A program made the translations under genes and the position numbers. This document shows, piece after piece, positions 7,400 to 37,651 of a stretch of DNA of 61,867 nucleotides (its first letter is position 1; every line of letters begins with the position of its first letter). The stretch spans positions 1 through 61,867 of IMG/VR virus record IMGVR_UViG_3300025570_000015; one strand, given 5' to 3'. The notes under the pieces were generated by a model, which was not told the DNA's origin, searched no databases, and was given only the letters and a program-made list of their open reading frames with translations. The DNA is from a virus.

Positions 7400-7761
7400 T
7401 ATTCAAACTCCTTAACATAAGACGAGTGAAGCTGATGCCAGCCATGTTTCGCCAATGGTTTTTTCCAGCCGACACGCCCCGTCATGGTTAGTGCCGCGCA
7501 TCCTTGCGCTTTAGCCCACTCTACCACATCTTGGTGCATATCCAAAATTTGATCCAATTCGCCACCGCCTAAAAACACGTTTAACATTCTTTTTCTTGGG
7601 TATACCACAATTTCTGTGACTATGCACCCCTTTGGTGAAGGCCACAACTGCAATGTACCCTTATATATTCCTTCAGCAATATCAATGAAGTCATGCGTGC
7701 CGCCAGAGTATTCTAGAGCTGCTTCTATCCAAGGCTTACATCTTTCTAATTCTTCATTCAT
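7399..7761 (-). CDS. GNAT-fold-like virion-module protein, unit A
   Basis: A 120-aa compact alpha/beta protein. The strand pattern TEIVVYPRKRMLNVFLGGG followed by helix DMHQDVVEWAKAQGC and a last strand ALTMTGRVGWKK resembles the acetyltransferase-like proteins found in tail gene clusters of podoviruses. The usual acetyl-CoA P-loop (R/Q-x-x-G-x-A/G) is not clear, so catalysis is uncertain. ATGA overlap with the next gene upstream and TAATG overlap downstream show tight translational coupling. Confidence 0.6.
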   Translation of the reverse strand: MNEELERCKPWIEAALEYSGGTHDFIDIAEGIYKGTLQLWPSPKGCIVTEIVVYPRKRMLNVFLGGGELDQILDMHQDVVEWAKAQGCAALTMTGRVGWKKPLAKHGWHQLHSSYVKEFE

Positions 7762-8423
7762 GCGTGCGTTCTCGTAATTGATAATGTTGAGGATGGTATT
7801 GATGGAACGGGTGATGATGCAGCAGTGTAATTTAAAAATCCGTCAGTGTTATCCATCATGTAATTTACTTCTAAATAATCACCAGCCGCCACAGTAAATA
7901 TCTGTGTTCGTGACGTAACAACTGTAGCGTTATTCTGGTGTAATGCAGTTGTCATAGCGCTATTATCTACATTCGTACCATTTATGCTAGGCCAGAAGTA
8001 AAAATGTACTGTGCTTGCGCTTGTTGATGATATTTGCGCAGAAAATGATAATACATATTCCCCAGCCTCTTCAAATACAATTCTACTTGCTGGTGTGCCT
8101 TGTGTGATTTTTGAATTACCAGTTGGTACGTCATAGGTCAGCTTGTATGCTGTATTTGCTAGAGCCGGTGTAACGTCTGATGTTTTAATAAAGTTAGCGT
8201 GTCCACCTTCCATTACAATTTGACGCCACTCTCCACCTTCACTTACAACTGGATATTTGTATACTCGATTCCACATAAGAGTGCCATCTTCTGCTGCATT
8301 CTCATCTCCATTCTGTTGAACTAGCGTGGATCTCGTTTGGGCAATATATGCAACTAATCGGCGACCCCACGTTCGCCAATCATTACCAATTACATCTGGC
8401 GCTCGCTGTTGCTGCTCGCTCAT
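7758..8423 (-). CDS. Beta-rich tail protein, unit A
   Basis: 221 aa. A short N-terminal helix (WRTWGRRLVAYIAQTRS) attaches to a beta-sandwich-like domain (about 60-221; repeated FxxxG and Thr/Ser-rich strands such as YVLSFSAQISSTSAS). It looks like a C1q/TNF-type or carbohydrate-binding tail domain. It lies between the tail hub gene and the GNAT-like gene with 4-nt ATGA overlaps on both sides. The unit B version is close, differing mostly in the first 50 residues. A tail decoration or receptor-contact role is inferred. Confidence 0.6.
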   Translation of the reverse strand: MSEQQQRAPDVIGNDWRTWGRRLVAYIAQTRSTLVQQNGDENAAEDGTLMWNRVYKYPVVSEGGEWRQIVMEGGHANFIKTSDVTPALANTAYKLTYDVPTGNSKITQGTPASRIVFEEAGEYVLSFSAQISSTSASTVHFYFWPSINGTNVDNSAMTTALHQNNATVVTSRTQIFTVAAGDYLEVNYMMDNTDGFLNYTAASSPVPSIPSSTLSITRTHA

Positions 8424-26511: not shown

Positions 26512-26603
26512 TTTAAATCTCCTTGGGTCTGATAAATTTAGCAATAAAGCAATGTAAATAGATGCACAAGTACATTATGATATAAAAATGATATATAAAG
26601 TGT

Positions 26604-26631
26604 TTGACCCCCACGCAAAAATACTTATAAT
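26604..26631 (+). promoter_or_regulatory. Strong early sigma70 promoter, plus strand
   Basis: TTGACC (26,604-26,609) and a perfect TATAAT (26,626-26,631) with a 16-bp spacer; the start would be about 26,638. It drives the only plus-strand block. It sits in the AT-rich divergent interval in front of the RHH gene, which makes it the natural target of that regulator. No clear minus-strand promoter of equal quality was found here. Confidence 0.8.
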
Positions 26632-26665
26632 GGCTGTATAAATGCAAAATATGAGGAAATATAAA

Positions 26666-26998
26666 ATGACAAAATATGTAGTAATAGCAAACCTAACCAT
26701 TGCTGATCAAACAAAATTGGGCTTTGAGGTTAAGTCAAAATTTGTTTCTAATTATTTGGATACATCAACCAAAGATAATCCTAACAAACCTTTAATCGCA
26801 CTTTATGGTGAAAAGCCAAAATTGTTTGACAATATTGCTTTTGCGGACGCATTTGCAGAAAGGTTGCGTAGGTATAGATATGATGGTCAACAAATCACAG
26901 TGGCTTGGTTTGAAACGATTGAGTACAATGCAAAATTAGCAGAGGCTTCATTTGCTGATCAAGTTGAAAACTTTCTATTTGGTGGGGTGCAGGCATGA
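26666..26998 (+). CDS. Early protein of unknown function (110 aa)
   Basis: The start MTKYVVIANLTIADQTKLGF at 26,666 has GAGGA 8-9 nt upstream; the earlier ATG at 26,642 would place it almost on the transcription start. First gene behind the early promoter, a typical slot for host-takeover proteins. Alpha/beta, soluble, with a RLRRYRYDGQQITVAWF segment. ATGA overlap with the next gene. Family not recognised. Confidence 0.6.
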   Translation: MTKYVVIANLTIADQTKLGFEVKSKFVSNYLDTSTKDNPNKPLIALYGEKPKLFDNIAFADAFAERLRRYRYDGQQITVAWFETIEYNAKLAEASFADQVENFLFGGVQA

Positions 26999-27582
26999 GC
27001 TGGCACGAAAATGATTATCACGATAAATGGGATAACCCAAGATATGTAGCCGCAGTTGAGGCAAGCATAAAAGCCAATGCTAGAAAAAGCAGGGCTAAAA
27101 AGTTTTACGCTAATGATGAGCGAGCGCAGGAAATTACAGAATTTTTAGCTGGCTCTAGTTATGATAATGCAGATAGCTTTCTTGGCAAAATGGAAACAGC
27201 ATTAAATGACTATGGATCTTTAACTGAAAGCCAACGCAATGCGGTTGTAAAAATTATTGACAAACGTGCGGCTCTGGTTGCCGAGCGCCAAGCGGCTGAC
27301 GCTGACTGTAAGTGGGTGGGCGTTGTTGGTGAACGTCAGGCGTTCAGCCTAACAGTACAGCACGTTGTGGCTCTGGAAGGATATTACGGCACGACATACA
27401 TTAACATATGCCGCGATGAGAATAATGACATCGTTATCTATAAAGGATCTAATGGTTGGTCAAAAAAAGGCACTGATGTAACTTGCATGGCAAAAATTAA
27501 AGAGCATGGCGAGCGCGATGGTGTTAAGCAAACTATTATCCAGCGCCCTACAAAAGTAAAAATCAATGGTGAGGATTGGTAA
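26995..27582 (+). CDS. Early protein with OB-like C-terminal segment (195 aa)
   Basis: The N-terminal half is helical and charged (about 20-95, KARKSRAKKFYAND-like). The C-terminal half contains KWVGVVGERQAFSLTVQHVV and ends with MAKIKEHGERDGVKQTIIQR, a signature I associate with small OB-fold modules in phage DNA-metabolism proteins. It could bind nucleic acid; no catalytic residues are apparent. Start ATGA-coupled to the previous gene; the stop overlaps the next ATG (TAATG). Confidence 0.55.
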   Translation: MSWHENDYHDKWDNPRYVAAVEASIKANARKSRAKKFYANDERAQEITEFLAGSSYDNADSFLGKMETALNDYGSLTESQRNAVVKIIDKRAALVAERQAADADCKWVGVVGERQAFSLTVQHVVALEGYYGTTYINICRDENNDIVIYKGSNGWSKKGTDVTCMAKIKEHGERDGVKQTIIQRPTKVKINGEDW

Positions 27583-27698
27583 TGAACATCACAATGATCA
27601 AAGACGGATTGGCTATGGCATTATTTGCTGTAGCCGCCGTACACTTGCCAGAGATTATAGTTTTTCTGGATCAATTTATTAATGTTTGGGGGAGATAA
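27582..27698 (+). CDS. 38-aa single-span membrane peptide
   Basis: Sequence MNITMIKDGLAMALFAVAAV and onward to VWGR. One hydrophobic stretch (about 9-30) predicts a membrane helix. It is linked to both neighbours by TAATG stop-start overlaps, which supports it as real. An early small membrane protein could act in superinfection exclusion or membrane targeting; that is inference. Confidence 0.6.
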   Translation: MNITMIKDGLAMALFAVAAVHLPEIIVFLDQFINVWGR

Positions 27699-28375
27699 TG
27701 GCTACACTAAAAAAATTAAAATCTGACTATGAGTTTTGGAGTGGCGCTTATGCTGATGTTGCTTGTAGTGCTGATTTAAAAGGTATTGATAGGCTTAATG
27801 ATCAAGCTGAAGCCTCACGTTCGCTTGCTGTAGATGCATTTAATGCTTACTTGGATGAACTAAAAAACCAAGAAAAAGTCAAAAAAACCAGAGAAGCATT
27901 AGATCAAGTCATGGATACAATTGCGCCAACAGAAACACCTTTTTTTGCAAAACCAAAACTACTGACAAGTAATGACCAAAAAATGACAATATCTTTAATT
28001 GAAAAAATGGATGAATTGAAGTTAAAGATATTCTTATTCCATAATCTTAAAAATATTGACCCACATTTATATAAATTATTGTTTACAGAAATAGATAAAA
28101 ATAAATTTCCAGTCAGAGTTAAAAATTGTTTTTTCCATACATTTAAATTTGAAGTCTTTCATTATGATTTAATATTAAGAAACGATAAGTTTTTTAAATA
28201 TATACCAAATTTTGGCAAAAAATCATTAAAACTCGTAAAAGAATATTTAGATGAATACGGCTTGAAGTTAAATACAGATTTAAAAGATATTAAATATGAA
28301 GCGTTAAAATCTTTAAACCTTATTAATTTAAAGCATGATTATTTGTTTGTTGAAAAAAGAGGTTTTGTTCAATGA
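27698..28375 (+). CDS. Early protein with RNA polymerase alpha-CTD-like domain (225 aa)
   Basis: Start MATLKKLKSD at 27,698 behind GGGGGAG. Residues 1-90 are helical and unlike the alpha N-terminal domain. Residues about 135-193 match the bacterial alpha C-terminal domain: PVRVKNC (R140, N143, C144; E. coli R265, N268, C269) and IPNFGKKSL (G173, K175, S176; E. coli G296, K298, S299). E. coli E302 is replaced by L179. These are the UP-element contact residues. The domain-coding half is very AT-rich (9 G/C in the 60 bp 28,141-28,200) against 24/60 at 27,721-27,780, so it looks like a fusion of different origin. Likely a transcription modulator. Confidence 0.78.
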   Translation: MATLKKLKSDYEFWSGAYADVACSADLKGIDRLNDQAEASRSLAVDAFNAYLDELKNQEKVKKTREALDQVMDTIAPTETPFFAKPKLLTSNDQKMTISLIEKMDELKLKIFLFHNLKNIDPHLYKLLFTEIDKNKFPVRVKNCFFHTFKFEVFHYDLILRNDKFFKYIPNFGKKSLKLVKEYLDEYGLKLNTDLKDIKYEALKSLNLINLKHDYLFVEKRGFVQ

Positions 28376-28602
28376 CATTCTACACAACACTCATTATCAC
28401 ATACGTCATTGGTGGCGTGGAGTTGAGTAATGACACATTGTATCGCAGCGCAATGGAGTGCGGCGATGCATTGCCGGCAGCGTATCAGCCATATGAACAT
28501 TTGGATAGCATGGCGCAATGCATTGAGACAAACTATGTCAGCTCTGCATCAATATCAATTGAGCCAACGCTCAGACCGAAAGGATTAAACAATGGCGGGT
28601 AA
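28372..28602 (+). CDS. Small early protein, hydrophobic N-terminus (76 aa)
   Basis: MTFYTTLIITYVIGGVELSN begins with a short hydrophobic segment, then a polar part with two cysteines (AMECGDA, AQCIETNY). ATGA overlap with the alpha-CTD-like gene and 11-nt overlap with the next gene show operon coupling. It might be periplasm-directed, but the segment is short for a signal peptide. Function unknown. Confidence 0.5.
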   Translation: MTFYTTLIITYVIGGVELSNDTLYRSAMECGDALPAAYQPYEHLDSMAQCIETNYVSSASISIEPTLRPKGLNNGG

Positions 28603-28816
28603 AGAAATATACATCCCATGCCCGGAATGCGCGGGCAATGGTACTACATTGTATGAAAAGGATTTCGATATTTTTCATCAAAGTTATATGTATGAAAAAA
28701 GTGAATGCAAAAATTGCGCTGGTACTGGCTTAATTACTCCAGAAGAAATCAGTAAACGCACAAAAATCCCAGCGCTTGATAAGGCTGGCAAATTTGAAGA
28801 TTGGAATAAAAAATGA
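28592..28816 (+). CDS. DnaJ-type zinc-finger protein (74 aa)
   Basis: Two CxxCxGxG modules, CPECAGNG (C10, C13) and CKNCAGTG (C39, C42), form one DnaJ-like zinc centre separated by about 25 residues. No J-domain is present. Such isolated zinc modules in early phage proteins often mediate binding to nucleic acid or protein. Role here unknown. Confidence 0.65.
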   Translation: MAGKEIYIPCPECAGNGTTLYEKDFDIFHQSYMYEKSECKNCAGTGLITPEEISKRTKIPALDKAGKFEDWNKK

Positions 28817-28831
28817 TTGAGGAGAATACAA

Positions 28832-29038
28832 ATGGCAATGGGTTCGAAAGAAGTACACCAATATGTGAGGCGTCTGCAAAAGATGAACCGCGAAATAATC
28901 AAAGACATGAAGACGCCAGACCCCACACGAAATCGTGGTTACTACCTTTGGTTCATGAAAGAGCAGCAGGCGATACTGGACAACCTAGAGCAACGCCTTA
29001 CGCTTATGCGACGTTCGAAAAAACCAGAGAAGCCATGA
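28832..29038 (+). CDS. Small helical early protein (68 aa)
   Basis: Start MAMGSKEVHQYVRRLQKMNR at 28,832 with GAGGAG 7 nt upstream. Basic helical protein (RNRGYYLWFMKEQQAILDNL). I prefer this frame to the alternative frame over the same DNA (from 28,813), whose translation is low-complexity shadow sequence. Its TGA overlaps the next ATG (ATGA). Confidence 0.55.
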   Translation: MAMGSKEVHQYVRRLQKMNREIIKDMKTPDPTRNRGYYLWFMKEQQAILDNLEQRLTLMRRSKKPEKP

Positions 29039-29454
29039 AAGGCCAATCAAAGAGCGTTCGCTATGAGATGATGTATGGTCACTTGCTCTACACGTTTGAG
29101 AAAAAGCAAATTAAGCTTGGCCTCAGAAATAATTTAAACAGGAGTGACAGGCCACGTCAGGTCATCGCTAATAAATCATCGCATAAAAATTTTGTGACCG
29201 CCAATGATGTGAGAAACATCAAACCAATACCGCAAAAAAAATATGATCAGATATTGAAGTATGTCAATCGTGGCGGCGAATACACGACAACTATGGTTTC
29301 GAATGGCACTGGTCTATCTGTATCAGATTTGGCGTGGACGCTGAATGTCATGTATAAGGGCAAGCTTGTGGATCGTGTAAGTAAGAGAACCACGCCAATC
29401 ATCGGCAACCCCGGGCCTAAGTCGTGGCGGTACGTTTACTTTAAGAAGAAATAA
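29035..29454 (+). CDS. Winged-helix-like DNA-binding early protein (139 aa)
   Basis: Start MKGQSKSVRYEMMYGHLLYT at 29,035, ATGA-coupled to the preceding gene. The C-terminal half has KYDQILKYVNRGGEYTTTMV and GLSVSDLAWTLNVMYKGKLV, a helix-turn-helix with a following wing (VDRVSKRTT), similar in layout to MarR/replication-control wHTH domains. Last gene of the early block. It may act on phage or host promoters. Confidence 0.6.
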   Translation: MKGQSKSVRYEMMYGHLLYTFEKKQIKLGLRNNLNRSDRPRQVIANKSSHKNFVTANDVRNIKPIPQKKYDQILKYVNRGGEYTTTMVSNGTGLSVSDLAWTLNVMYKGKLVDRVSKRTTPIIGNPGPKSWRYVYFKKK

Positions 29455-35370: not shown

Positions 35371-36327
35371 TTATGAAGTTGTGTTGTCAGCAATGATACC
35401 ATTTGCTTTTTCATTTTTAGCGCACAGTGTTAGCTCTGTGGTGACTTGTCTTGTGGAATTATCTCCAGTTTTTGCGAGTGCAACATTCTTTGTTGGACGT
35501 AAAACTGCAACTTCCCACATATTGTCCTGCATGATGAAAACATCGCGTGATCTGTTCTCCCGGCTGGGCATAAATTCAACAGATCCCCAAGGTGTTACAT
35601 ATACAGCAAGTGATTTGATTACTTTCTCATCACCAGCTTGTACTGCTGAACGCTGGTTGTTGTTACCAGTGAAGCCTAAAGCTAGGTTCATTTGGAATGC
35701 AGACAAGTAAACTGTGTCTGGCTTTCCGCCCTCTTCCCAAATTGACTGCATAACGCCATCAAATTTAGTTTGTGAAAATGCTGTTGGCGTACCATCATCA
35801 GTACGCGCATCAGAACCATCACCAGTTGGGTTTGCGCCAGAGTTTCCAGATTGGAAGTCTACGTTTGTAATCATCCATGCTGGAGCGCCTGCAAGTTCGC
35901 GTGCTGTTGATGAATTACCAGCAACTCTTGCGTTGTTTGCGAATAGAGCTTTTTCTATATCGAGCTTCTGCTCTTTCGCCACTTTTAAGGTGTGATAAGC
36001 TAACTCACGACCCCGGCCTGCTTTATTTAGACCTTCATCTGTGTCAGGAACTACAACTGCGTTTTTAAAGATTTGCGTGTAATTGCCTAAACGAGATGTT
36101 GCTGTACGTGCTTCAGCAGTAGTTGCATCGCCTTCAATGTGAGCGTTTGCGCCAGATGCACGTAGTGAATCTGTCTGCCACTCGGTAAAAGTGTTGCGTG
36201 CAGTAGTTTTCTTACACTTAGAATATAGTGGAGTTTCCTCCGGGCTTACGTTGTAAATCACGTCAGATAAATCTTCACGTATCCCCACAGCATCATAGCT
36301 GTCAAATGTGTTGGATGGTTGTGCCAT
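35371..36327 (-). CDS. Major capsid protein (SU10/BPP-1-like HK97 fold)
   Basis: 318 aa. MAQPSNTFDSYDAVGIREDL, then YNVSPEETPLYSKCKKTTA are typical of the SU10-like major head family. The body contains the KFDGVMQSIWEEGGKPDTVY and FMPSRENRSRDVFIMQDNMW segments of the HK97-fold A and P domains. No N-terminal delta region is present, which fits a separate scaffold (next gene). It is followed by a strong terminator, as expected for the most expressed gene. Confidence 0.85.
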   Translation of the reverse strand: MAQPSNTFDSYDAVGIREDLSDVIYNVSPEETPLYSKCKKTTARNTFTEWQTDSLRASGANAHIEGDATTAEARTATSRLGNYTQIFKNAVVVPDTDEGLNKAGRGRELAYHTLKVAKEQKLDIEKALFANNARVAGNSSTARELAGAPAWMITNVDFQSGNSGANPTGDGSDARTDDGTPTAFSQTKFDGVMQSIWEEGGKPDTVYLSAFQMNLALGFTGNNNQRSAVQAGDEKVIKSLAVYVTPWGSVEFMPSRENRSRDVFIMQDNMWEVAVLRPTKNVALAKTGDNSTRQVTTELTLCAKNEKANGIIADNTTS

Positions 36328-37408: not shown

Positions 37409-37651
37409 CTAGTTCCTTTGTTTGCGATCTAAAATTAACTCTGCCGCCAAAGCAGCGTCGAGTTTAATTTCGATCTGGTTCACTGCACGCAGTATTGCGT
37501 GAGCATCTTCACGTACATCAACGTCTGATGCACTACTGTCAGCGAATAACCTTAGTTGGTCATCGCGTACCTGTTGCATAAAATTTATAAAAGCTGTGTC
37601 GTTTTTTAGACGCTTAGCTTCATCTGCGTTTATGCGTATTTCTGTTGTCAT
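37409..37651 (-). CDS. Small conserved virion-module protein (80 aa), at the A/B junction
   Basis: Complete version of the gene cut at the window start. MTTEIRINADEAKRLKNDTA, then RDDQLRLFADSSASDVDVRE. ATGA overlap with the unit B portal and 5 bp before the scaffold start. The 127-bp exact repeat lies inside it, so its N-terminal part is unit B sequence, its middle is common, and its C-terminus comes with unit A scaffold. Function unknown. Confidence 0.7.
   Translation of the reverse strand: MTTEIRINADEAKRLKNDTAFINFMQQVRDDQLRLFADSSASDVDVREDAHAILRAVNQIEIKLDAALAAELILDRKQRN
37458..37584. repeat. 127-bp exact repeat, internal copy (probable assembly join)
   Basis: Identical to bases 1-127. Left of it sequence continues as unit A scaffold; right of it unit B begins with differences from unit A (for example TTTATAAAAGC in place of GCACGAATGCC). 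See the first finding for the interpretation. Confidence 0.9.

Follow-up and report, generated by a model that had tools for sequence, protein, structure and literature searches.

A marine phage fusion protein bearing a detached, reshaped RNA polymerase alpha-CTD

The gene and its setting

Bacterial RNA polymerase responds to UP elements and to many activators through the C-terminal domain of its alpha subunit (alpha-CTD). A phage gene that seems to encode this domain raises a twofold question: is the domain genuine, and what might it do when detached from the polymerase? The gene lies in a 61,867-nucleotide stretch of viral DNA (IMG/VR record IMGVR_UViG_3300025570_000015), called the window below, where it forms a 225-aa ORF with its ATG at 27698 and its stop at 28375 (+ strand). 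A first-pass annotation, made from the sequence alone, had proposed an alpha-CTD-like domain in this ORF; Pfam, phmmer, a family profile and Foldseek bear that proposal out. The product is a marine phage fusion protein in which a detached, reshaped alpha-CTD is joined to an N-terminal part. Its features are the following.

27698–28375 (+): gene for the 225-aa fusion protein; identical in contigs L001 and L002, 87–88% identical in L003–L005
27698–27889 (+): N-terminal helical part, residues 1–64; no known family, model confidence mostly <50
27890–27970 (+): linker, residues 65–91 (REALDQVMDTIAPTETPFFAKPKLLTS); likeness to the N-arm of the same phage's major capsid protein
27962–28372 (+): alpha-CTD-derived module, residues 89–225; standalone at 137–153 aa in L006–L022
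28088–28282 (+): alpha-CTD core, residues 131–195, from PF03118, the PDB profile search and Foldseek
28115–28126 (+): R140–N143, equivalents of R265–N268 by alignment
28205–28228 (+): PNFGKKSL, residues 170–177, equivalent of 293–300 by alignment
28283–28372 (+): basic C-terminal tail, residues 196–225; near-invariant in family alignments A1 and A2

The gene sits in a short + strand operon (about 26642–29454) flanked on one side by a − strand replication/structural block and on the other by a − strand lysis/structural block. Around it in the operon lie a small membrane-like ORF, a 213-aa protein, a small CxxCxGxG zinc protein and a 195-aa phage protein that has no known function (phrog_27218); recombination genes (RuvC-like resolvase, exonuclease VIII-like, ssDNA-binding/annealing) adjoin. 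The zinc protein (28592–28816) bears a weak likeness to the zinc domains of DnaJ and, at E = 1.8e-4, to Q-like antitermination proteins. Host contamination as the source of the gene was rejected, because the gene is located inside a phage operon, recurs in 40-odd viral contigs and had no relative that we found in bacterial genome contigs. The idea that the C-terminal part alone is foreign, judged by its AT-richness, was also dropped: GC content differs along the protein (21% vs. 36%) but matches at third codon positions (19% and 18%), so that the difference is accounted for by amino-acid content.

The window does not represent a single genome and is probably a chimeric assembly of two related phages, A and B. 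A 37,566-bp IMG/VR contig matches phage A (about 37.46 kb), and the two phages are joined through a stretch in which 116 bp or more are identical (1–116 and 37458–37573). The phage B half (37574–61867) holds structural and replication genes and is 74–88% identical to phage A in the aligned parts. The presumed host belongs to the Rhodobacteraceae; this assignment is a hint only, because the terminase that is 91% identical to the phage's lies in a metagenome bin.

A true, divergent alpha-CTD

Residues 89–225 are a true, divergent alpha-CTD. Pfam matched PF03118 to residues 125–186 (E = 5.5e-5, 23.2 bits), which is borderline with respect to the curated cut-off of 23.8 bits; another run gave 24.0 bits. 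The standalone relatives score above the cut-off (27.7 and 28.9 bits). When phmmer was run against the PDB, RpoA filled the first 29 rows (best E = 4.8e-5), and a 15-sequence family profile (A2) again returned RpoA as its best PDB match (1.1e-7), with no other molecule at E <0.05. AlphaFold2, run on the family alignment, gave pLDDT values of 73–90 by blocks over residues 91–205 and low values in the N-terminal part. The model of residues 91–205 has the helix-hairpin-helix alpha-CTD fold (Foldseek probability 1.00). Foldseek ranks 1–46 against the PDB were all RNA polymerase alpha-type chains, with a best E of 4.3e-3 and none <0.001; isolated alpha-CTDs superposed on the model at about 2 Å over 69 residues, and the matches include 9zum, the Caulobacter alpha-CTD on AT-rich DNA. 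In a search against viral models, the named top matches were phage proteins automatically named "RNA polymerase, alpha subunit, C-terminal". A PHROGs match of the window protein to phrog_20372 (E = 0.029) was discarded as too weak.

Could this similarity be due to chance or convergence? The single-sequence Pfam score just below the cut-off is the point in favor of that explanation, but the relatives above the cut-off, the family profile and the uniformly alpha-type fold ranks leave it close to refuted, and we rejected it. Two of the checks proposed in the first-pass annotation, a profile search and a structure prediction, led to RpoA. The domain limits given there (residues 135–193) do fall on the alpha-CTD, but the module is wider. 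There was also agreement on the N-terminal part, which had been said not to be an alpha-NTD: Pfam found no alpha-NTD in the 225-aa protein, its sole near-threshold match being the CTD, and the NCBIfam RpoA models matched by their C-terminal end only (18–33 bits vs. cut-offs of 228–434). Without an alpha-NTD, the protein should not assemble as a normal alpha subunit.

The module is under purifying selection (dN/dS 0.08–0.25, and about 0.04–0.11 over residues 157–225). Its fastest-evolving part is the first-helix region surrounding R265–N268 (0.2–0.8). The model of the 225-aa protein has a helix at residues 195–205; no counterpart of the 196–225 tail was recognized in RpoA.

Contact residues

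R140, N143, N171, G173, K174, K175 and S176 of the window protein are the equivalents of R265, N268, N294, G296, K297, K298 and S299, and they lie in the motifs VRVKNC (139–144) and PNFGKKSL (170–177). All five UP-element contacts that had been noted earlier (R140, N143, G173, K175 and S176) are thus present, but one of them, N268, is not family-wide, being G, A or Q in the long-hairpin members. R265, N294, G296, K297, K298 and S299 are invariant in the family; residue 295 varies. In the window protein, E302 is replaced by L179. The window-family alpha-CTD may have weak DNA affinity, since the window type lacks E302 and the long-hairpin members lack N268.

Of the acidic sigma and activator determinants at 258/259/261 and 287, D133 is kept, but lysines (K134, K136 and K164) stand at 259, 261 and 287; position 288 is F165. 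The core has a net charge of +5 and a pI of 9.4, compared with a net charge of 0 in the presumed host and a median of 0 in other phage orphans. Judged by residue pattern, DNA contacts appear better kept than sigma and activator contacts. The mimicry of alpha-CTD toward activators and sigma, which had been suggested for this protein, is consequently less likely than DNA occupancy, given the lysines at 259 and 261 and the phenylalanine at 288.

A mobile module

Relatives of the window protein in IMG/VR number 49, and among them the alpha-CTD module is mobile: it has been exchanged among N-terminal partners and is absent from some relatives. It stands alone as a 137–153-aa gene in L006–L012 and, with a hairpin longer by 15–16 residues, in L014–L022. 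It is fused to the window-type N-terminal part in L001–L005 and to an OB-like one in L023–L040. Conversely, the window-type N-terminal part occurs alone as a 94–95-aa gene in L042–L046 and L049; PF03118 had no match in the three such contigs tested, all of which are contig fragments. The OB-like domain (about 70 residues, cold-shock-like by eye, with a weak match to OB_RNB) is found alone in L044 (1617–1859). In the L011 and L016 types, neighboring genes include methyltransferase-like (by eye) and DUF5843 genes.

Promoter and probable early expression

Two features stand at the head of the operon.

26574–26603 (+): UP-element-like AT-rich block (87% A+T by composition), the 30 nt just upstream of the -35 hexamer
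26604–26631 (+): sigma70-like promoter TTGACC-N16-TATAAT, 11/12 consensus, heading the + strand operon

This promoter is the only TTG[AC]NN-N15-18-TATAAT site on either strand of the 61.9 kb, and both features are kept in the relative L003 (83% AT at the equivalent place). The first-pass annotation had put the gene in the first operon expressed. The promoter and its AT-rich upstream DNA do head the operon; from the operon's start at the sole such promoter, we infer that the gene is early. The annotation had also stated that the phage has no RNA polymerase, and a PHROGs scan of 30 window proteins indeed contained none; the same library recognized an N4-like RNA polymerase in another phage.

The linker and the capsid N-arm

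The linker resembles a segment of the major capsid protein.

36199–36279 (−): N-arm of the major capsid protein, residues 17–43; likeness to the linker by BLASTP and hhalign

Residues 65–91 (REALDQVMDTIAPTETPFFAKPK) align with capsid residues 17–43 (REDLSDVIYNVSPEETPLYSKCKK) at a BLASTP E of 0.001. With hhalign, the capsid protein is the best match to the linker among the other window proteins (P = 3.2e-5); as a single sequence it scores 32, and the next best window protein scores 17. The linker and the capsid arm are the sole matches to P-x-[EDTK]-T-P-[FLM] in the checked contigs that hold both genes, and the linker is common to both N-terminal types. One reading of this likeness is that the protein may be packaged into the head. 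At its fullest, that reading would have the linker copy the capsid N-arm and send the alpha-CTD protein into the procapsid, so that it would be injected and act as a decoy on host promoters from the first moments of infection, which we consider very improbable.

Orphan alpha-CTDs in other phages

Viral contigs were queried with two alpha-CTDs, one from E. coli and one from the presumed host (Rhodobacteraceae). These queries retrieved 53 distinct orphan alpha-CTD proteins (90% clustering; L109–L212) in open frames of 69–374 aa, a Ruegeria phage and one gut-phage record included. R265 is present in 53/53 and N268 in 44/53, and both positions lay outside the retrieval pattern; positions 293–302 were inside it, so their retention is no independent evidence. 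Pfam found no alpha-NTD among the eight orphans scanned. Most orphans are 40–77% identical to the host or E. coli alpha-CTD and keep the acidic residues at 259/261. Some are alpha- and some gamma-proteobacterial-like, and their architectures vary, with coiled coils, HTH domains and sigma70 region 4. One orphan (L110), folded from its single sequence, gave an uninformative pLDDT of 44. The neighbors of ten orphans were examined, and eight had phage families nearby (terminase, N4-like RNA polymerase, DNA polymerase, primase, DnaB, helicase and large phage proteins). The orphan gene of L112/L116 (near 7704–8240) belongs to a phage that also encodes an N4-like RNA polymerase.

In L190 (5479–6180) and L124 (2350–3360), both phage or phage-like, sigma70 region 4 is fused to an alpha-CTD. 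These two domains touch one another in normal polymerase, and the fusions place orphan alpha-CTDs in transcription initiation. A cultured representative is gp23 of Ruegeria phage vB_RpoS-V16 (AWY09459.1; L122, 4932–5798), whose alpha-CTD (41 bits) is N-terminal; in the RefSeq copy of the record the gene is annotated as pyrophosphatase. A second PF03118 match is infrequent in bacteria (3/61 genomes of the presumed host's order). One bacterial frame from that order (L108, reverse strand; 830 aa) is not RpoA; its alpha-CTD (52.6 bits) precedes an HTH that is sigma-like by eye.

Repeated capture of the alpha-CTD by phages is suggested: the tree needs 5–6 changes, of which the starred branches force only one, and its 67 columns are too few for independent captures to be counted. 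UniProt automatically names a few phage entries "RNA polymerase, alpha subunit, C-terminal [uncultured Caudovirales phage]" (A0A6J5SA90, A0A6J5MNY7). Our literature search, whose coverage excluded subscription journals and bioRxiv, returned T4 Alt, Rac and BREX PglW and no description of phage orphan alpha-CTDs. Detached alpha-CTDs in dozens of phage contigs suggest a common, unstudied way to act on host promoters. If active there, they would constitute a widespread class of host-takeover factors so far known from automatic database names only. The shuffled module, the fast-varying first helix, the orphans in many phages and the capsid-arm-like linker all go beyond the first-pass annotation.

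Candidate roles

We tentatively favor, at slightly less than even confidence, an early DNA-binding decoy that would act on UP-type DNA and shift the use of host RNA polymerase. Made early and borne on N-terminal parts that can be exchanged, an orphan alpha-CTD would bind AT-rich DNA in its minor groove, the way alpha-CTD does. Having no tether to polymerase, it would occupy UP-type DNA upstream of promoters and compete with the host alpha-CTDs; UP-element-dependent or alpha-CTD-dependent host transcription would fall, rRNA first, and polymerase would shift to phage promoters. The homology and fold and the invariance of R265, N294, G296, K297, K298 and S299, together with R265 in all 53 other orphans and N268 in 44 of them, support the decoy, as do the basic core, the sigma70 region 4 fusions of other phages, the promoter with its AT-rich upstream DNA and the lack of an RNA polymerase among the scanned proteins. 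Against it, the R265–N268 region evolves fastest, a single alpha-CTD binds UP DNA weakly, no oligomerization part was identified in the window protein, and three relatives (contig fragments) showed no such domain. T4 sets a precedent that this residue repays modification by a phage: its enzymes Alt and ModA attach ADP-ribose to Arg265 of alpha, on which UP-element contact crucially depends (PMC2988021).

What other roles might such a domain serve? Reuse of an alpha-CTD-derived helix-hairpin-helix DNA binder outside transcription (in replication, recombination, packaging or phage DNA protection) is unlikely. The adjoining recombination genes, the methyltransferase-like and DUF5843 genes near the L011/L016 types and the generic DNA binding of HhH folds speak for it, but the best matches are to RpoA rather than to generic HhH families, and an uncommitted HhH would not need R265. 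We consider it quite unlikely that the protein is instead a protein–protein decoy, titrating host activators, sigma region 4 or an RNA polymerase-binding defense factor. Many activators make their contact at alpha-CTD, and the surface around the hairpin diversifies fastest, which would be expected if it were a contact face tracking the host; BREX PglW, moreover, carries an alpha-CTD-like domain (PMC12839542). Yet the window protein has K, K and F in place of the acidic sigma and activator determinants at 259, 261 and 288, which most other phage orphans retain.

A further candidate is a positive factor for phage promoters, which would bind 26574–26603 and similar sites and bridge to host polymerase via its N-terminal part or C-terminal tail. 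The AT-rich block preceding the sole strong sigma70-like promoter, the near-invariant tail and the sigma70 region 4 fusions of other phages would suit such a factor. A near-consensus promoter should need no help, however, and the window has no further phage promoters of the type searched for; we judge this role decidedly unlikely. With its acidic contact residues lost and its core basic, the window protein looks more like a decoy that occupies DNA than a bridge that recruits polymerase.

Comparison with known systems

The alpha-CTD-like domain of BREX PglW is likewise reused in a phage–host conflict protein (PMC12839542), but PglW is a large kinase with winged-helix domains, unlike the window protein, and no sequence match between the two was seen. 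T4 Alt/ModA and the phiKMV-like Rac are also phage devices directed at host alpha or its CTD (PMC2988021; PMC7552054). They are enzymes acting on the host subunit, whereas in the window protein the phage carries its own copy of the domain; an injected decoy would be akin to T4 Alt, which acts by chemistry.

With bacterial RpoA CTDs (PF03118; PDB 9zum, 1lb2, 3n97), the window protein shares the fold, the helix order, R265 and the PN-G-K-K-S loop. It differs from RpoA in having no alpha-NTD, in being only about 35% identical to the presumed host domain, in its substitutions at 259/261 (K), 288 (F) and 302 (L), and in a changed or lengthened hairpin; it also adds helices before the domain and a 30-residue tail after it. 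The automatically named UniProt phage entries and the 53 orphans are likewise small proteins with an alpha-CTD, no alpha-NTD and freely exchanged partners. Most of those orphans are closer to the host or E. coli alpha-CTD, whereas the window family forms a separate long branch (support 98 in the tree with other phage orphans), the most derived seen here, and its shuffled module allows clean tests.
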